DNA of 20,876 nucleotides, from positions 1 through 20,876 of IMG/VR virus record IMGVR_UViG_3300033149_002560; one strand, 5' to 3'. This document shows, piece by piece, positions 1 through 20,876 of this stretch. The notes under the pieces are model-generated. The model worked only from the letters and a program-made list of their open reading frames with translations. It had not been told where the DNA came from and did not search any database. Made by a program: the position numbers and the translations under genes. Numbering within the stretch: the first letter of the stretch is position 1; each line of letters starts with the position of its first letter. Origin of the DNA: a virus.

Positions 1-135
1 TATCAGCACCCCTATGTTTCAATAGCAAAACAGGCCAGTGAAATGGTACGCAGCTGGGGCGCTAAACTGGGCCTGACCCCACGTGACCGAATGAGCTTAA
101 AAATACAACCAATTAAACCTGATTCAATATTCTAA
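1..135 (+). CDS. terminase small subunit, C-terminal end (partial)
   Basis: The first frame is open from base 1 to the TAA at 133-135 and gives 44 residues, with sequence such as VSIAKQASEMVRSWGAKLGLTPRDR. A conserved LGLTP.R stretch near the C-terminus is typical of P27-family small terminase subunits, which bind phage DNA and start packaging. The start lies outside the window. The gene ends 5 bp before the large subunit, the normal TerS-TerL order. The identification rests on the LGLTP.R stretch and on position; only the tail of the protein is visible. Confidence 0.75.
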   Translation, partial: YQHPYVSIAKQASEMVRSWGAKLGLTPRDRMSLKIQPIKPDSIF

Positions 136-140
136 GAATC

Positions 141-1883
141 ATGGCAGTTAATGAAGCCCTGGAAAGAATTGCCTATTCTGATATTTGTATCAGGAAGGCC
201 CGTAAATATATTAAGGACATGGAAGCGGGCAAGATTAAAGCAGGCCAGGCCGAAATTAGGGCCGTAATTCGACACGAAAAAGAATTAAAAAAAGTCAGGT
301 TTAAAAACTTCCCTTTTTACTTTGACGAAAACGGCCCAGACCGGGTTTTTCAATTTTTCAGTTTCTTAAGGCATTCAAAAGGCGAATGGTCCGGCAGGCA
401 GTACATGCTGGCAGATTGGCAGTGCTTTATTATTTGGGCTCTCTTTGGATGGAAAAGAAAAAAGGACCACAAAAGGCGATTTAAAATTGCCTATGTGCAG
501 ATAGCACGTAAAAACGGAAAAACAACATTTGCTGCCGGTGTCGCGTTATATCTAATGATGTACGACCACGAAAAAGGGGCCGAGATTTACGCGGCAGCAA
601 CAACAAAAGACCAGGCCAGGCTTTGCCACATGGAAGCGGTTAGGATGGTGAAGCAATCAAAAGAAATTTATGAGCATATAGAAGTGCTGGGGGGTAAAAA
701 GCCCAGCAGCCTCATTTTTGAAAAGAATTTTGCTTTCTTTAATCCCCTATCATCAGACGCAGATACTCTTGACGGTTTGAACCCATCCGGTGCCATTGTT
801 GATGAATTGCACGTGCATAAAACCCCGGAAGTGTGGGAAGTGCTAGACACAGGAACCGGGGCCAGGTCCCAGCCGATGATTTTCGGTATCACAACCGCAG
901 GAAGTAACCAGGAATCCATTTGCTATGAATTACGGGAACACGCGTTAAACATTTTGGAAACATCGGACAAAGGCGGTGATTATATAGACCACAGTTTTTT
1001 CGCCTATGTTGCCGAGCTTGACGATGGTGACGAATGGACCGACCCGGAAACCTGGCGCAAGGGTAATCCAAATATAGGGATATCAGTTAAACGTGATGAA
1101 TTGGCAGATCAGTGCAACCGGGCCCGATTATCCCCAGGAAGGCAAAACCAATTCAGGCAGAAGCGTTTAAATGAGTGGGTGGAACAGTCAACAAGGTTTA
1201 TTGACATGGAAGCCTGGGCAGCCCTTCCAAAAAGGGGCAAGGTGGATTTGGTAGGGCGCCCATGCTTCGCAGGGCTGGACTTATCCAGCACCATTGATTT
1301 TACAGCACTGGTTTTAGTTTTTCCCCCTGTTTTCGGCCTTAAATACTGGTATTGGTTGCCCTTCTTTTGGCTGCCGCAGGAAAGGGTAAGGAAGGTAATG
1401 CAGGAAAGGCGCTTGCCTATTGATCGATGGGTTAAGGCCGGTGATTTATTTACAACCCCCGGCAATGTTATTGACTATGACAACGTAAGGGACAAAATTA
1501 ACGAGCTCGGCGAGTTGTACGATATCAAGGAAATAGGTTACGACCCCTATAACGCTATGCAGATAATTCCAAAGTTGGAAAGTGACGGTTTTGAATTGGT
1601 TAAGATGCGCCAGGGTGTTCAAACCTTGCATGCACCAACCAAAGAGCTAGAAACCCAGATTATAGGGCGCCAGCTATCCCCCAGCACCAACGGGGTATTA
1701 AAATACATGGCAAAAAATGTTTCTGTATTACGTGACAATAACGGCAACATGAAACCGATAAGAGAAAACGAAAGACTTAAAATTGATGGGATTGTGGCGG
1801 GCATTATGGGCATAGGCCGGGCGCTGGCTTACGACCTAACAGAGAATGATGATACTATTACCGCAATGACCCTGGGAGATTAA
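141..1883 (+). CDS. terminase large subunit (HK97-type, Terminase_1 family)
   Basis: 580 aa, the usual length for this family. It is the ATP-driven DNA-packaging motor and headful/cos nuclease that docks on the portal. The N-terminal ATPase shows a Walker A-like ARKNGKTT (122-129), Walker B GAIVDE (217-222, catalytic E222) and a coupling motif GITTAGS (249-255). The C-terminal RNase H-like nuclease shows three expected acidic positions: D380 in GLDLSS, D468 in GYDPYN and D549 in KIDGIVAG. All key residues are present, so it looks functional. The start is ATG 141, 5 bp after the small subunit's stop. A CDS for the portal follows after 4 bp, behind a GGGAG Shine-Dalgarno. Confidence 0.96.
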   Translation: MAVNEALERIAYSDICIRKARKYIKDMEAGKIKAGQAEIRAVIRHEKELKKVRFKNFPFYFDENGPDRVFQFFSFLRHSKGEWSGRQYMLADWQCFIIWALFGWKRKKDHKRRFKIAYVQIARKNGKTTFAAGVALYLMMYDHEKGAEIYAAATTKDQARLCHMEAVRMVKQSKEIYEHIEVLGGKKPSSLIFEKNFAFFNPLSSDADTLDGLNPSGAIVDELHVHKTPEVWEVLDTGTGARSQPMIFGITTAGSNQESICYELREHALNILETSDKGGDYIDHSFFAYVAELDDGDEWTDPETWRKGNPNIGISVKRDELADQCNRARLSPGRQNQFRQKRLNEWVEQSTRFIDMEAWAALPKRGKVDLVGRPCFAGLDLSSTIDFTALVLVFPPVFGLKYWYWLPFFWLPQERVRKVMQERRLPIDRWVKAGDLFTTPGNVIDYDNVRDKINELGELYDIKEIGYDPYNAMQIIPKLESDGFELVKMRQGVQTLHAPTKELETQIIGRQLSPSTNGVLKYMAKNVSVLRDNNGNMKPIRENERLKIDGIVAGIMGIGRALAYDLTENDDTITAMTLGD

Positions 1884-9791: not shown

Positions 9792-11750
9792 ATGGCAGAT
9801 TTAACAAAATTGGTGGTAAGGCTTGAGGCGCAAAATACCAAGTATTTAAAAGAGCTGGACAAGTCAAAAAAAGCTGCAAACAAGTGGCGAAACAAGGTAG
9901 AGAAAGAAAATAAAGCGGTACAGGTTTCTTTCAAACAGCTGGCAACCGGCCTGACTGCCGGTGCTGCCGCTTTTTCCGTATGGTTTAAAGCCCAGGCCAG
10001 TAGCATTGATCAGACAGCAAAACTTGCTGCAAGCATTAACCTGGGCACACAGGAACTTCAAGCATACAGACTTCAAGCCGAGTTAACCGGTGTTTCACAA
10101 CAGGCCCTTGATAAATCTTTGGTGAAGCTGGCTAAAAATGTTGGTGACGCAGAAGCAGGTTTCGGGCAGGCAAAGGTTACACTGGAAAAACTGGGCCTGG
10201 CTAATGAGGCATTTTTTAACCTTAAGCCCGGCCAGCAGTTTGAAGTTATTGCAGATACTATAGGCCAGCTGGACAGCGCCCAGGCTAAAGCCAGCGCCAG
10301 CGCAGCACTATTTGGCAGGGAAGGGGTTGCACTTGCAAATACATTTGCAGAGGGTGCCGGTGGATTTCAGAAAGCTAAAGACGATATTGAAGCCCTGGGG
10401 GTTGCACTTACAGAAGTTGATGCCAGGAAAATTGAGCAGGCAAACGATGCCTTTACAAGAGTATCAACAGCAGTAAAAGGTTTTTCCCAGCAGCTTGCAG
10501 TGCAGTTTGCCCCGATTGTTGAAAAGCTAGGGCAAACAATATTTGACACAGCAAAGGAAGCTGGCGGGCTGGATAACATAGCAAAAACAGTTTTTCAGAA
10601 TATTGCAACGGGTGCAGCGGTGGCGGCCAACGGTGTGAGAGTTATTAAATTGGGTTTTCTGGCAGTAAAAGCTACTGTGCAAACCTTTGCAGCGGTTGTT
10701 GTAAAAGGTTTCCAGTTTATTGTTGATACTAGCAGCCAGGTACAGGCCAGCTTGGTTAATGGGTGGCGGGATGCATTACAAGCTATTGCAGACCGGGTTG
10801 CAGCATTTGCCAGCGGAATTGTTGCCAAATTTGAAGATATCGCGATAACTGCAGCAACCATTGCCAATAAGATTGGCGCAGATATCGATTTAACCGGTTT
10901 AAATGATCAGTTTGCCGATATCAAAGACAAATTAAATGATGCCTTTACCCTGGACCCCAGCCGAGTAACCGCGCAACCATCAGAGTTTTTTGGCAGCTTT
11001 GCAGAATCATTTGAAGAACAGGCAGCAGCTACCAGGGAAAGGGTTGTGGAATTGGCAAACGAACCTTTACCAGCTGGCGCTGTATTTGAATGGGTTGAAA
11101 ATGTTACTAACGCATCCGAACAGGCCGCGATTGAATCAACCAGTGTAAGAAACGAAATTATTAGCAGTGCATTAACCACGGAAGTGGAAATGACACAGCA
11201 GGCAGAAGATTCAAAGACCAAGATTCAGAAACAAGCCGCAGCAGATAGGCTTGCATTTGAACAAGCTACCAGCGCCCAGAAAGCCAAAACTATCATCGGT
11301 GACGCGGTTGCAATTACCCAGGGAGTTGCCCAGCAGAATAAAACCTTGTTTAAGATTAACAAGGTCGCTGGTATTGCAAATGCCATTGTTAATACTTCCC
11401 AGGGTATTACAAAAGCACTTTCAGCCTATCCCCCGCCAATTTCATTCGCCTTTGCAGCACTTCAAGCTGCAGCCGGTTTTGCCCAGGTCCAGGCTATTAG
11501 GTCGCAAAGTTTTTCCGGTGGTGGCGGTGGTACAACCCCAAGCGCAACCGGCACTACTGCGGTGGTGAATAATACGCCTATCAGTAACGGGCTTGACGTT
11601 GATGTGGGCGAATTTGGCGGGGCAGGCCGTGAAATATCTATTCAGTTTGATTCGACAATTACAGATACCCAGGCCGTGAGGGACTTTATTGCAGGCCCAT
11701 TTGCGGAAGCTATCGGTGACAATGTAAACGTAAATGCAACGGTGATTTAA
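9792..11750 (+). CDS. tail tape measure protein
   Basis: 652 aa, long, helical and alanine-rich, located right after the chaperone pair. It sets tail length by spanning the tube lumen. The N-terminus is a coiled coil (LTKLVVRLEAQNTKYLKELDKSKKAANKWRNKV). A hydrophobic middle stretch (about residues 280-310) resembles the membrane-interaction segments of other tape measures. The C-terminal part SAQKAKTIIGDAVAITQGVAQQNK and INKVAGIANAIVNTSQGITKALSAYPPP is typical of lambda-type (TIGR01541-like) tape measures. At roughly 1.5 Å per residue the tail would be about 100 nm. Its stop TAA overlaps the next ATG (TAATG at 11748). It contains GGTGGCGGCC at 10619-10628. Confidence 0.93.
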   Translation: MADLTKLVVRLEAQNTKYLKELDKSKKAANKWRNKVEKENKAVQVSFKQLATGLTAGAAAFSVWFKAQASSIDQTAKLAASINLGTQELQAYRLQAELTGVSQQALDKSLVKLAKNVGDAEAGFGQAKVTLEKLGLANEAFFNLKPGQQFEVIADTIGQLDSAQAKASASAALFGREGVALANTFAEGAGGFQKAKDDIEALGVALTEVDARKIEQANDAFTRVSTAVKGFSQQLAVQFAPIVEKLGQTIFDTAKEAGGLDNIAKTVFQNIATGAAVAANGVRVIKLGFLAVKATVQTFAAVVVKGFQFIVDTSSQVQASLVNGWRDALQAIADRVAAFASGIVAKFEDIAITAATIANKIGADIDLTGLNDQFADIKDKLNDAFTLDPSRVTAQPSEFFGSFAESFEEQAAATRERVVELANEPLPAGAVFEWVENVTNASEQAAIESTSVRNEIISSALTTEVEMTQQAEDSKTKIQKQAAADRLAFEQATSAQKAKTIIGDAVAITQGVAQQNKTLFKINKVAGIANAIVNTSQGITKALSAYPPPISFAFAALQAAAGFAQVQAIRSQSFSGGGGGTTPSATGTTAVVNNTPISNGLDVDVGEFGGAGREISIQFDSTITDTQAVRDFIAGPFAEAIGDNVNVNATVI

Positions 11751-17214: not shown

Positions 17215-17649
17215 ATGTACATACAGCCACAAATTAGAAACGATAGCCAGGGAAGTGGTGAATGGAGATCAAGACGCGGAAAGCGGCCCCATAAGGGTAT
17301 TGATTACCAGGTAACACCAGGGGCCTTTATTAAATCCCATGTAAACGGAAAAGTTACCAAGCTGGGGTACCCATACGGTGACGATTTAAGTTATCGCTAT
17401 GTAGAGGTAACAGATTACGCTGGTTTGCGGCACCGGTTTTTTTACGTTGAACCATACGCAAAGGAAGGCGAATTAATCCAGGCAGGGGCCGTTTTAGGCT
17501 GGGCCCAGGATGTTGCAGCAAGATACCCAGCAAACGAAACCAGGGGCGAAATGCAGCCCCACATTCATTATGAAGTGCTAGACCAGGCCGGGCTTGATTA
17601 CGACCCAGAAAAGTTTTTGCAGCACTTCACAAAAATAGAAGTTTCTTAA
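17215..17649 (+). CDS. M23-family peptidase endolysin
   Basis: 144 aa, a stand-alone peptidase M23 domain (LytM/lysostaphin-like zinc endopeptidase) that cuts the peptide cross-bridges of peptidoglycan. Zinc ligands are visible: H26 and D30 in PHKGID, H118 in PHIHYEV, with H116 as likely catalytic base; H73 in LRHRFFYV is a further conserved-type position. No signal peptide or wall-binding domain, so it should depend on the holin upstream. M23 endolysins are less common than lysozyme or amidase types in such phages. AAAGG before ATG 17215 supports the start. The gene ends the late transcription unit. Confidence 0.9.
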   Translation: MYIQPQIRNDSQGSGEWRSRRGKRPHKGIDYQVTPGAFIKSHVNGKVTKLGYPYGDDLSYRYVEVTDYAGLRHRFFYVEPYAKEGELIQAGAVLGWAQDVAARYPANETRGEMQPHIHYEVLDQAGLDYDPEKFLQHFTKIEVS

Positions 17650-17731: not shown

Positions 17732-17759
17732 TTGACTAGTTACGCGTAACTAGTAGAAT
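17732..17759 (+). promoter_or_regulatory. sigma70 promoter of the early/replication operon
   Basis: TTGACT (17732-17737) and TAGAAT (17754-17759) with a 16-bp spacer, both 5/6 to consensus. It is the best promoter match I saw in the window and sits between the late-operon terminator and the replication-type genes. Transcription would begin near 17766. Confidence 0.75.
17735..17754. promoter_or_regulatory. 20-bp perfect palindromic operator in the promoter spacer
   Basis: ACTAGTTACGCGTAACTAGT is identical to its reverse complement. It fills the region from the end of the -35 box to the start of the -10 box, so a dimeric regulator bound here would block RNA polymerase. No recognisable repressor is encoded in the window; the regulator could be host-encoded or lie outside. 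Confidence 0.7.
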
Positions 17760-17884: not shown

Positions 17885-18240
17885 TGATGGATTTTTTATG
17901 TAACCATGTTTATGACGAATACGGTGTTTGTTTCGAGTGTGATCATGTACGGGGCACCCCGGAACCGTTGAACCAGGGAAGGCAAAAACTTATTCACCTG
18001 GATAAAACAACACAGCTGGCGATATTTGATGCCTGGTTAAACAAAAACATTCAGTATTTTAAACAGTCTGAAAACAGCTGGAAAAAGCTAAGGGCCAGCG
18101 CAGCATTGAGAAAAGCCGGAATTTATCGCCCTAACCCTGTTGCTGAAAATAGTGAATTTTGCCAAAATCCAAAACCAGCGGGCAAATTTGAAACAGAGAG
18201 AGATAAGCAAAATGGACAAGAACCAAAAGAAAATGATTAA
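17884..18240 (+). CDS. small protein with CxH-CxxC zinc-binding motif
   Basis: 118 aa from ATG 17884, chosen over the in-frame ATG 17758 because that codon lies inside the -10 box and would not be transcribed; GAGGGG is 4-10 bp upstream of 17884. The N-terminus MMDFLCNHVYDEYGVCFECDH has a C-x-H...C-x2-C-x-H pattern, likely one zinc knuckle. The middle is helical (TTQLAIFDAWLNKNIQYFKQSENSWKKLR), the C-terminus polar and disordered. First gene of the operon; perhaps regulatory or DNA-binding, but function not recognised. Confidence 0.6.
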   Translation: MMDFLCNHVYDEYGVCFECDHVRGTPEPLNQGRQKLIHLDKTTQLAIFDAWLNKNIQYFKQSENSWKKLRASAALRKAGIYRPNPVAENSEFCQNPKPAGKFETERDKQNGQEPKEND

Positions 18241-18433
18241 GCTGGCTTTTGATGCCAGAGAGCAGCTAAACGATTGGGAAAGCGGTTTTATTGTAAAACT
18301 CAATAAACTGGCAAACCATCACATGCCTGTAAATCTAACTGATAAGCAAGCCCAGAAGTTAAAGCAGATTGATAAAAAGCTAACCGCAATTCACGAGGGC
18401 GAAAATGGGGAACTATCCGAGCCAGAAGGCTGA
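18212..18433 (+). CDS. small helical hypothetical protein (73 aa)
   Basis: From ATG 18212, overlapping the previous gene by 29 bp, with GAGAGAG about 8 bp upstream; an in-frame TTG at 18140 is less likely because it would overlap deeply. Content is charged and helical: MIKLAFDAREQLNDWESGFIVKL and LTDKQAQKLKQIDKKLTAI. This pattern of two helices around NHHMPVNLTDKQ recalls small proteins encoded beside phage replication initiators, but I do not recognise a family. Confidence 0.6.
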   Translation: MDKNQKKMIKLAFDAREQLNDWESGFIVKLNKLANHHMPVNLTDKQAQKLKQIDKKLTAIHEGENGELSEPEG

Positions 18434-18563
18434 AAACCGAAAGGAGTACATGCGCAAGTACAGAGCTGATAAAAAGGCGCAGGGTTTAACGCAGGTGCGA
18501 TTTGACAGCATAACCCACCAACAAAAGGCCCAGCTTTTGAAATACTGGGAAACAATAAAATAA
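18405..18563 (+). CDS. small basic protein (52 aa), possible ribbon-helix-helix type
   Basis: ATG 18405 to TAA 18561-18563, overlapping the previous gene by 29 bp. Sequence begins MGNYPSQKAENRKEYMRKYR and includes LTQVRFDSITHQQKAQLLKYWETI, i.e. a basic helix, a short strand and a helix, compatible with a small DNA-binding protein. GAGGG lies 7 bp before ATG 18405. A second in-frame ATG at 18450 has AAGGAG only 3 bp upstream and might give a 37-aa form. Fills the gap before the initiator-like gene. Function unknown. Confidence 0.6.
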   Translation: MGNYPSQKAENRKEYMRKYRADKKAQGLTQVRFDSITHQQKAQLLKYWETIK

Positions 18564-18582
18564 AAATCATAAGGGGCAATTT

Positions 18583-19017
18583 ATGAGTTTTGAAGCAGCA
18601 GCCTGGGCAATTAAGCAGCGCCCAGAATCACCAACCGAAAAGTTAATTCTAATAGCACTAGCTGACTGTATGAATGCAGAAACAGGCCGGTGCTTCCCTT
18701 CCGTTGATTTCCTGGCAGAAGCGGCTTTGTGTTCAAAGAGAACGGCCCAGCGCGCAATCAAGAGCCTGGAAAGCCAAGGCTTTATTAATCGCAGTTTCAG
18801 GGTAAACGATACTCCCTTATATCGCCTTAATTTGGGTGGGTGTCAAAATGTCACCCGGTGTCAGGATGATGATTTGGGGTGTCATATTGACACTTCTAGG
18901 GGTGTCACCGGTGTCACCCTAACCAGGAAGTTAACCAAGAATAATAAACCAGGGGTTACAGCTGCCGCTGACTTTGTTGAATTGCATACAAGCACAGAGT
19001 GGGCAGCAGACTTATGA
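18583..19017 (+). CDS. replication initiator-like protein, HTH_36 domain
   Basis: 144 aa. Residues ~15-70 form a winged helix-turn-helix of the HTH_36 type: PTEKLILIALADCMNAETGRCFPSVDFLAEAALCSKRTAQRAIKSLESQGFI. This domain is found at the N-terminus of phage replication proteins (lambda O-like) and plasmid Rep proteins. The C-terminal half is short, without a helicase-loader or primase domain, so host helicase recruitment would need another factor. The DNA for residues ~86-112 is an array of GGTGTCA repeats, as expected if the protein binds an origin within its own gene. AAGGGG 5-10 bp upstream supports ATG 18583. Confidence 0.7.
   Translation: MSFEAAAWAIKQRPESPTEKLILIALADCMNAETGRCFPSVDFLAEAALCSKRTAQRAIKSLESQGFINRSFRVNDTPLYRLNLGGCQNVTRCQDDDLGCHIDTSRGVTGVTLTRKLTKNNKPGVTAAADFVELHTSTEWAADL
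18838..18919. repeat. iteron-like cluster, candidate replication origin
   Basis: GGTGTCA occurs five times in the same direction at 18839, 18857, 18878, 18901 and 18910; TGTCA occurs again at 18849, and inverted at 18888. The last two copies are the tandem GGTGTCACC GGTGTCACC. All fall within 80 bp inside the initiator-like gene, followed by a more A/T-rich stretch to about 18955. Lambda's origin inside gene O has the same architecture. The origin role is inferred. Confidence 0.6.
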
Positions 19018-19523
19018 ACACAAAAGAATTTGAACAAAGTTTGAAAGTGCAGCCAACGTTTTACGAATTGTATTATGTGCTGCATAGGGAAGGCAGGACA
19101 AAGGCAGAAGCAGCAGCGGTTATAAATCGGTATTTTGAATTAACGATTTCTGCAAAGCATTTGCACTTGTTTTGGATGGTTGAAAATAACGGAATCATTG
19201 ACCTGGAAAGGCATCATTTTTTAAGGGAAGGCTCAAGATTGCTATTCCCTGTTTATGTGGTGTTTTATGAAGATGCAAAAATGCACTTTGCTGATAATGT
19301 TACCGAGCTATCAAAATTCAATTACAGCAGGAACGACAAGGCCAGGCTTTCTGGGTTGAATTGTGCTTGTTGTGGAATGGATTTTAGTAAAAAGGGTTGT
19401 GGTGGTATGTTTGAAAAGTGTGATTTAGAGACAAGGGAAAATACTAGATTCAGGGCGCTTAATGAATTAGATAAGAGGGAATTTAAAAATGTTGGAATGG
19501 GAACCGATGGAAATGAGATATAA
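19014..19523 (+). CDS. hypothetical protein with Cys-rich segment (169 aa)
   Basis: Starts at ATG 19014 in an ATGA overlap with the initiator-like gene. A GTG at 18999 is in frame but would overlap more. The first 70 residues are helical with a helix-turn-helix-like piece (EGRTKAEAAAVINRYFELTISAKHLHLFW). Residues 117-136 hold C117, C119, C120, C129 and C136 in NCACCGMDFSKKGCGGMFEKC, probably a small metal-binding knuckle. In lambda the equivalent place is the helicase loader P, but no P-like or AAA+ features are visible. Function not recognised. Confidence 0.65.
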   Translation: MNTKEFEQSLKVQPTFYELYYVLHREGRTKAEAAAVINRYFELTISAKHLHLFWMVENNGIIDLERHHFLREGSRLLFPVYVVFYEDAKMHFADNVTELSKFNYSRNDKARLSGLNCACCGMDFSKKGCGGMFEKCDLETRENTRFRALNELDKREFKNVGMGTDGNEI

Positions 19524-19809
19524 AGAGCTAAAGTCTTTGCTTGATGAATGGGCCGGGTGTTTGAGTGACCAGGTACCAGAGAAGTTTAAAATAAAGGAAG
19601 TTTGCTACTGGCCCCAGGGAATCAGATATAAGCTATTAAACGACCAGGCCCAAAAGCTAGGTCCTAAAGATCGGGCTTTGTTTTGTAATGGCAGCCAGTG
19701 GGCACAGCACAAAATGGAAAGGCAGTTAAACATTCCAGAATTAATGGCCTTCCGCAGCTGCATGGTAAATAGCTTCCTTACAGATTCATTTTTTTACATA
19801 GAGGCGTGA
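19489..19809 (+). CDS. hypothetical protein (106 aa) upstream of parS
   Basis: ATG 19489 with GAGGG 9-13 bp upstream, overlapping the preceding gene by 35 bp. Sequence MLEWEPMEMRYKELKSLLDEWAGCLSD then VCYWPQGIRYKLLNDQAQKLGPKDRALFCNGSQWAQHKMERQL. Place in the operon (late part of an early/replication region, ahead of packaging genes) is where Q-type antiterminators are often found, but no Q motif is visible. The stop TGA abuts the parS sequence without a gap. Confidence 0.6.
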   Translation: MLEWEPMEMRYKELKSLLDEWAGCLSDQVPEKFKIKEVCYWPQGIRYKLLNDQAQKLGPKDRALFCNGSQWAQHKMERQLNIPELMAFRSCMVNSFLTDSFFYIEA

Positions 19810-19825
19810 TGTTTCACGTGAAACA
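19810..19825. promoter_or_regulatory. parS: parS (ParB-binding centromere site)
   Basis: TGTTTCACGTGAAACA, a perfect 16-bp palindrome, matches the bacterial chromosomal parS consensus TGTTNCACGTGAAACA at every position. It fills the short gap between two genes (stop at 19807-19809, next ATG 19829). No parA, parB or clamp-type partition gene is visible, so host ParB would be the binding partner. Sequence identity is direct; function is inferred. Confidence 0.85.
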
Positions 19826-19828
19826 ATT

Positions 19829-20065
19829 ATGAATAAATCGGAATTATTTGGCGGGGTTATCTTGCTGGCAGTTGTTGTTTATGTGTTGTGTGTATCGGTG
19901 GCGGCCCTTCAAGTGCTAATTGCCTGGATATCAGAGAACTTTAATTTTTTTGAGTCTATCTTTTGGTTTGAAAATTGGCATGTATCTTTGCAGATTGGTG
20001 GCGGTGGTTGTTTTGTTTTCCTGGGCATTCTGTTTTTAATCGGTGGTTTTGATGATGCCAAGTAA
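19829..20065 (+). CDS. small two-span membrane protein
   Basis: 78 aa. Membrane spans at about residues 8-34 (GGVILLAVVVYVLCVSVAAL) and 55-73 (GGGGCFVFLGILFLIGG), joined by an aromatic loop WISENFNFFESIFWFENWH. No clear Shine-Dalgarno precedes ATG 19829, because the leader is taken up by parS; translation may be coupled or low. It could be a second lysis protein, a superinfection-exclusion protein or a membrane partner of the DNA; none is recognisable. Contains GGTGGCGGCC at 19897-19906. Overlaps the next gene by 11 bp. Confidence 0.65.
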   Translation: MNKSELFGGVILLAVVVYVLCVSVAALQVLIAWISENFNFFESIFWFENWHVSLQIGGGGCFVFLGILFLIGGFDDAK

Positions 20066-20447
20066 CTTAGAAGAAAAGCTATTCTTTCAGCTGACAATCG
20101 CAGGACTGCCGGAACCGGTTAAAGAGCATGTATTTTTTGAGGGCCGTAAATGGCGCTTTGATTTTTGCTGGCCTTCCCTAATGGTGGCGGTTGAATGTGA
20201 GGGGATTATATACAACCAGAACTATAAAGCCGGTGTAAGGATGGGCGGCAGGCAAGCAGGCAGGACCACACAAATAAAAAAGAGCAGGCACCAGACAGCT
20301 GCCGGATATAGCAAAGACTGTGAGAAGTACAACGCAGCTGCAGAGGATGGTTGGTTAGTGTTGCGATATACACAGCAGCACATTAACAGCGGTGAAGCAC
20401 TGCAACAGATCGAGCGTATAGTGAGCGCCAGGTTATGCCAACAGTAG
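20055..20447 (+). CDS. Vsr/DUF559-like PD-(D/E)xK endonuclease
   Basis: 130 aa from ATG 20055 (ATG 20052 is adjacent, GTG 20043 upstream). The core FEGRKWRFDFCWPSLMVAVECEG (Asp then Glu-x-Glu) followed by SRH.....GYSKDCEKYNAAAEDGWLVLRYT is the signature of small phage endonucleases related to Vsr and DUF559. In relatives EGG is followed closely by GRH; here an extra basic loop of about 20 residues (about 51-77, rich in Arg, Lys, Gly) separates them. Likely a DNA-structure or nicking nuclease for replication or packaging. It overlaps the HNH gene by 13 bp. Confidence 0.82.
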   Translation: MPSNLEEKLFFQLTIAGLPEPVKEHVFFEGRKWRFDFCWPSLMVAVECEGIIYNQNYKAGVRMGGRQAGRTTQIKKSRHQTAAGYSKDCEKYNAAAEDGWLVLRYTQQHINSGEALQQIERIVSARLCQQ

Positions 20448-20785
20448 GCAGCAAGACAGAATGTGCAGCACTGGGTTGCCATAGGACCACAGCAAATAAG
20501 TACTGCGACAAGCATAAGGGAGAAGGACAGAAGCGCAAACGTTCACGCAAGGGAAGCGATTACAGACCTTATAAAACACCTGCCTGGTTAGCTATGCGCG
20601 CAAAGATATTGCAACGTGACCCAGTGTGCAAAGGCCCTGGCCTTTATGGTGATGGGTGCAGCCAGCCTTCTAAACATGTTGACCACATAACCCCCTGGAA
20701 ACAGGGCGGTGCCTTTCTCGACCCAAAGAATCTGCAGGGCTTGTGCCACAGCTGCCACAGTAAAAAGACCCAGCGCGGCCAGTAA
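20435..20785 (+). CDS. HNH endonuclease with N-terminal zinc finger
   Basis: 116 aa. An N-terminal zinc-finger-like C10-C15-C24-H27 set and a Lys/Arg-rich linker precede an HNH domain: C65 and C75, D83-H84 in HVDHITPW, N99 in DPKNLQGLC, and C104/C107/H108 in CHSCHSKK. The C65/C75/C104/C107 cysteines likely hold the structural zinc. HNH proteins encoded next to terminase genes act in packaging and cos cleavage in HK97-type phages, and this one is last before the window end; the window begins with the end of a small terminase. Confidence 0.93.
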   Translation: MPTVGSKTECAALGCHRTTANKYCDKHKGEGQKRKRSRKGSDYRPYKTPAWLAMRAKILQRDPVCKGPGLYGDGCSQPSKHVDHITPWKQGGAFLDPKNLQGLCHSCHSKKTQRGQ

Positions 20786-20876
20786 AAAATTTTTTATTTG
20801 AATCTATCCTGCCTGTAAATAATTCACAAAAGGGGTGGGGGGGGGTAAGATAGCTGGAAAGTGGTAATCAATTCAG
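20786..20876. other. intergenic region with A6T6 palindrome and G9 run
   Basis: No gene is seen in these 91 bp. TAAAAAATTTTTTA (20783-20796) is a 14-bp A/T palindrome overlapping the end of the HNH gene. GGGG T GGGGGGGGG lies at 20832-20845, then a polypurine-like stretch. In related phages the cos site lies around this point between HNH and small terminase, but no cos feature can be recognised directly. Confidence 0.5.

Follow-up and report, generated by a model that had tools for sequence, protein, structure and literature searches.

An exact bacterial parS site on a small tailed-phage record in which no ParB was found, and its possible use to recruit host ParB

Introduction

The ParABS systems of phage-plasmids, such as P1 and those of actinobacteriophages, encode their own ParA and ParB. 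For phage phi29, Meijer and colleagues reportedly tied, in 2005, entrapment in the spore to parS sites on the phage genome. The entrapment itself, in which the phi29 chromosome is captured in the spore by the host's Spo0J (ParB), is mentioned in a passage of PMC9437464 that cites Meijer et al. 2005, and the same paper includes an account of phages that carry binding sites for the host proteins LexA, Spo0A, or CtrA. ParB is loaded at parS as a CTP clamp and then spreads, as summarized in a part of PMC12704722 that also names P1 ParB. The parS consensus is TGTTTCACGTGAAACA, as quoted in an extract of PMC10197239, which credits it to Livny et al. 2007. Among the matches listed from the open-licence literature, the passages concerned contain no report of host-ParB recruitment as a wider phage trait, or of parS sites in phages without ParB; the passage of PMC10294663 on this subject deals with chromosome segregation genes carried by phages, not with sites. 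In the phi29 genome (EU771092, L160), we located four identical sites with one mismatch to parS, TGTTTCACGTGGAACA, at 10445, 15903, 17243, and 18760, and ParB_N was not found in that genome.

Here, we describe an exact parS on a virus record, IMGVR_UViG_3300033149_002560, which was analyzed over its whole length of 20,876 bases (the window). Like phi29, the window phage has a parS-type site and no ParB_N was found in its record; phi29, however, is a podovirus with four sites whose host forms spores, and the window, in which a single exact site occurs, is a small record of siphophage type. It shares with the phage-plasmid systems a centromere placed on the phage genome, but it differs from them in that no ParB_N of its own was found. 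As in the phages with LexA, Spo0A, or CtrA sites, the binding site of a host protein is carried by the phage, although those proteins are transcription factors, not a partition clamp like ParB. The site is identical to the consensus of chromosomal ParABS systems in all 16 bases; unlike a chromosomal parS, it stands alone, on a virus record that has genes for terminase, portal, capsid, and tail, and not near a chromosomal origin (oriC).

Results

The site at 19810-19825 is a perfect 16-bp palindrome that agrees with the parS consensus at 16 of 16 positions, as the initial annotation had noticed, and it is the only match in the window at up to three mismatches. At even composition, 4.9e-6 exact occurrences would be expected by chance in the window, and Markov models of orders 0-3 give 5.2e-6 to 6.8e-6 for the 20.9 kb, close to the figure of about five in a million that had been put forward. 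Once three mismatches are permitted, 18 of 100 shuffles also give a parS match, and the weight consequently rests on the exactness of the site. A chance origin is very unlikely. The annotation had also placed the site between a stop codon and the next start, and indeed the gap from a TGA ending at 19809 to an ATG at 19829 is 19 bases long and the site fills 16 of them, in a window where wholly intergenic 16-mers make up 1.75% of all 16-mers.

The site is preceded by an ORF of 106 aa (19489-19809, plus strand), which has no family above chance and for which no relative was found in viral_contigs, and followed by an ORF of 78 aa (19829-20065, plus strand), also with no family above chance, whose product is hydrophobic on reading of the sequence and is a probable membrane protein. 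Farther downstream on the same strand are a phrog_503 protein of unknown function (20055-20447, PHROGs match) and an HNH endonuclease (20435-20785, Pfam/PHROGs match). Upstream, an O-like replication initiation protein (18583-19017, plus strand) matches replication initiation families (best PHROGs E 3.9e-16) and HTH_36, which supports the early or replication setting that had been proposed for the site.

Other readings of the palindrome as a nucleic acid element were considered and rejected. As an RNA hairpin, the 81-nt stretch around it folds no better than shuffles (z -0.10). No terminator-like element lies at the palindrome; the nearest is at 19848-19868, within the next ORF, and terminator-like sites number five against 4.0 expected. 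As for an iteron, there is no second parS copy, and parS is not among the six direct repeats, each with two copies, that were listed for 18200-20876.

A six-frame search of the window record did not find ParB_N (PF02195), and a Pfam scan of 20 of the window's proteins, all but three small ORFs, gave no match to a ParA or ParB family, in keeping with the earlier statement that the window encodes no partition protein. The search for PF02195 detected the domain in 10 of 14 control genomes and, as records are often fragments, failure to find ParB says little where the record is short.

The remaining recognized genes of the record are those of a phage. They comprise genes for terminase, portal, protease, capsid, head-tail connectors, tape measure, and tail proteins, and for an M23 peptidase in addition to the O-like replication initiator and the HNH endonuclease. 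The terminase large subunit (terL, 141-1883, plus strand) places the record among the tailed phages. Contamination by host chromosome was rejected as an explanation, since the recognized genes are phage genes.

Searches of viral_contigs with the portal protein and terL gave one close relative, G001, whose terL is 95% and whose portal is 82% identical. Its 18,661 bases start just before terS and stop before the replication region, and no parS occurs within them; because they leave out the region of the site, G001 is uninformative on parS. Searches of genome_contigs with terL and the tape measure found no relative, and blastn of 18583-20785 against phages gave no match. In nine cultured phages whose tape measure is a distant match, no site lay within two mismatches of TGTTYCACGTGRAACA, while a reversed control pattern had a match in one of the same nine. 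None of the 33 loci reached through the phrog_503 neighbor has parS within three mismatches. Of 107 phage records matched by the tape measure, 103 are named for Vibrio, Pseudoalteromonas, Marinomonas, Idiomarinaceae, Alteromonas, or Halomonas, with identities, among the matches listed, of only 22-34% over part of the protein. From these names, the host is probably a marine gammaproteobacterium, and spore capture is unlikely for the window phage.

Beyond the window, exact parS was found in at least 120 stretches of viral_contigs (IMG/VR), compared with one stretch in the whole collection for TGTTTGACGTCAAACA, a palindrome of the same composition that was the single control of this survey. A degenerate pattern that included control variants also gave at least 120 stretches, with no new locus among the matches listed, which may partly reflect scan order; the comparison rests on the TGTTTGACGTCAAACA scan, not on the degenerate one. 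ParB_N (E<=0.001) was present in four of the 120 exact-parS records listed, three above the family cut-off and one below, and 32 of the 36 listed records of 30 kb or more were without it.

The 120 loci listed contain 146 exact sites, 54 of which are wholly intergenic, as against 6.3% of all 16-mers (binomial p ~1e-27, a value that assumes independent sites, which sites sharing a locus are not). A further 85 sites lie inside called ORFs and seven more overlap one; the ORF caller is a simple script that over-calls, so the intergenic count should be conservative. The intergenic excess persists outside the group of phages with a phrog_38 terL (31 of 99, vs 5.9%). Two or more exact sites occur in 17 of the 120 loci listed, made up of 6 of 34 in the terL group and 11 of 86 outside it, and the same 120 loci hold 21 one-mismatch sites, where 20 control palindromes average 0.05. 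The surplus over the control palindrome, the intergenic excess, and the repeated and one-mismatch sites look like the outcome of selection and not like random matches.

The records that carry these sites are varied. A phrog_38-type terL is present in 34 of the 120 loci listed, some merely 27-30% identical to the queries, and six match the phi29 DNA polymerase and/or packaging ATPase. When the longest ORFs were scanned (up to 750 aa; 117 of the 120 loci), 27 matched phrog_38 terL and 11 the portal family phrog_1216; DNA polymerases, helicases, and some metabolic genes are likewise among the 25 commonest families listed, out of 84 and 93, and some of the surveyed viral records may be misclassified contigs. 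Two high-GC viral records, L087 and L116, have 12 and 6 sites within two mismatches, one exact in each, and are either phage or misclassified host DNA. Five exact parS sites lie within about 1 kb in both L017 (2657-3444) and L044 (10535-11462), and L075 has two, at 1843 and 3092; these three short records have a distant phrog_38-type terL (28-30% identity) and no ParB_N was found in them.

A further sample of the marine phrog_38 phages was drawn by terL, with loci not individually selected on parS, although the query (A1) was made from five parS-carrying loci, which centers the sample on the parS-carrying lineage. From the best 80 of at least 585 loci, we set aside 11 with a terL stretch identical to that of a parS-selected locus, leaving 69, and another 11 with less than 200 bp upstream; the 58 retained were 32 close and 26 distant loci. 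An exact parS lies within 1.2 kb upstream of terL in 13 of the 32 close loci (best 80 of at least 585 sampled), two of which, L179 and L181, have identical sequence around the site. Within 300 bp upstream, the best match per close locus had zero mismatches in 11 cases, two in one case, and five to eight in 20, the last being the range seen with control palindromes. Sites in this group are exact or absent, and hardly ever half-decayed.

The position of these sites is narrowly defined, with 11 of the 13 exact sites of the close loci placed 77-111 bp upstream of terL, and the 60-bp flanks on either side of those 11 sites have a mean identity of 38% (ungapped). In L179, L181, L183, and L188, a second symmetric variant, TGTTCCACGTGGAACA, lies 23-24 bp from TGTTTCACGTGAAACA, in either order (for example, at 643-682 of L183). 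There was no exact site in the available upstream DNA (up to 1.2 kb) of 19 of the 32 close loci, and one of the 26 distant loci has a near-site with one mismatch; parS is therefore dispensable in the terL group. Apart from the 1.2-kb stretch ahead of terL, the 447,615 bases of the 69 loci contain no site at up to two mismatches. Pelagibacter phage HTVC027P, a complete genome, has a one-mismatch site with the mismatch at an outer base, and the other three cultured phages with a related terL have no site within one mismatch. ParB_N was not found in any of the 20 records searched (13 with an exact site, two with a near-site, phi29, and the four cultured phages with a related terL).

Discussion

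Most likely, the 16-mer of the window is a true parS, at which host ParB is loaded onto the DNA of the phage. As to its use, tethering or segregation is our first guess and regulation our second. We lean, with confidence little better than even, toward a genuine centromere in a phage without ParB, through which host ParB would tie the phage genome to the segregation and origin machinery of the cell, to the benefit of tethering or partition. Host ParB would load on the site as a CTP-dependent clamp and slide across the surrounding phage DNA around the replication region. It would then link the phage genome to the host ParA/SMC segregation and origin-organizing machinery, so that the genome may be held on the nucleoid near the replication center and, when lysis is delayed, may be passed to daughter cells. 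Against this reading stands the single site of the window, whereas phi29 and some other phages have several, and the presence of ParB in the host, itself a probable assignment, is an assumption. The lack of sites in the nine distant cultured phages and the 33 phrog_503 loci, the dispensability of parS in the terL group, and the many survey sites inside called ORFs also count against it.

A serious rival, though an unlikely one in our estimation, accepts that host ParB binds the site and places the benefit in gene control. Clamps in the early region would slow or repress nearby transcription and thereby adjust the early genes to conditions at the host's origin region. The relevant passages of PMC5521831 provide precedents for this, as Pseudomonas aeruginosa ParB represses genes adjoining parS3/parS4 and limited silencing near parS is cited there for V. 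cholerae and S. pneumoniae; however, the same passages state that loss of spo0J in a B. subtilis null mutant did not significantly alter expression. The narrow placement of exact sites ahead of terL is also what gene control might produce, but most of the surveyed phage sites lie inside called ORFs. In the window itself, two weak promoter-like matches (9 of 12 each) are near parS, one on the plus strand at 19565-19592, 218 bp upstream, and one on the minus strand at 19871-19843, just downstream. However, promoter-like matches in the region are at chance level (8, where shuffles give 5.5 plus or minus 2.9), and the strongest, a sigma70-like match (10 of 12) on the plus strand at 17732-17759, is ahead of the early genes and 2 kb upstream of the site. 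We prefer tethering or partition to promoter control because the nearby matches are weak and no more frequent than by chance, with the best one so distant, and because a sliding clamp works equally well in the many other phage sites that lie inside called genes.

The palindrome might also be read by something other than ParB, as the operator of another regulator or as a translational coupler, with the match to parS a coincidence; we consider this quite improbable. In favor of a coupler, a mini-ORF of seven codons (MFHVKQL, 19809-19832, plus strand) runs around parS and bridges both genes, overlapping the preceding stop (TGATG) and the following start (ATGA), and parS sits where the ribosome-binding site of the downstream ORF would be, with no obvious ribosome-binding site seen for that ORF. 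The ATG of the mini-ORF, however, arises automatically wherever parS follows TGA. In favor of an operator, phages use palindromic operators, and the window phage has a second palindrome, the perfect 18-bp CTAGTTACGCGTAACTAG at 17736-17753, inside the sigma70-like promoter match. Its core, GTTACGCGTAAC, is kept at the same place in G001 (L124:5056), and it is probably the operator of a phage or host regulator, but it differs in sequence from parS. Both versions leave unexplained the complete match to the consensus, the identical 16-mer in unrelated phages (phi29-like, phrog_38 terL, and others), and the co-occurrence of parS with the symmetric variant TGTTCCACGTGGAACA.

That the window site is a functionless accident deserves very little credence: matches are inevitable somewhere in so large a collection, the single match of the control palindrome implies a few parS matches by chance, and no relative shows the site conserved (none that was found spans it), but at least 120 stretches against one put the share of chance among such sites near 1%, a figure that would rise to as much as about 10% were a dozen chance matches allowed per palindrome (a rough guess from an assumed collection size), and the share is lower still once the intergenic location is counted.

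Recruitment of host ParB had been proposed by the initial annotation as a new kind of parasitism. The recruitment part remains the best reading, given that chance is very unlikely, that no ParB_N was found, and that the survey revealed a strong excess of sites, nearly all on records where ParB_N was not detected, while the claim of newness does not hold, since the reported use of Spo0J by phi29 is a precedent. The phage type and the breadth of parS carriage look new. Nothing that we saw supports in particular the low-copy extrachromosomal state that had also been suggested.

More broadly, the carriage of host parS without ParB may be a general phage strategy that has arisen many times, for instance in phi29-like phages, in marine phrog_38 terL phages, and in HK97-type siphophages such as the window phage, with host ParB clamps (and ParA and SMC) loaded to place, compact, or partition phage DNA. 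The window would be a clean single-site case, probably outside spore-formers. We are evenly divided on this wider proposal. If it is true, borrowed centromeres would be a widespread route for phage DNA into the segregation and condensation machinery of the host, hosts without chromosomal ParB would be predicted to have phages without parS, and the strategy would bear on the persistence of non-integrating phages in slowly growing or dividing cells.

Minor features of the record

The M23 peptidase of the window (17215-17649) shares 49% identity with an M23 peptidase of L091 (3507-3869), a record that carries parS, and the parS of that record (3627) falls inside the stretch that matches the window's peptidase.

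The window begins in the last 44 codons of terS (1-135, plus strand), which encode a C-terminal stretch of 44 aa with the same sequence as the last part of the ORF that precedes terL in G001, where terS has 149 aa, and it finishes 91 bases past the HNH gene. By comparison with G001, the record is perhaps near-complete, with a few hundred bases missing. A G-rich run at 20832-20845 follows the HNH gene and would precede the start of terS, which the record lacks, and a similar run is located upstream of terS in G001 (L123); the run is a possible cos region.
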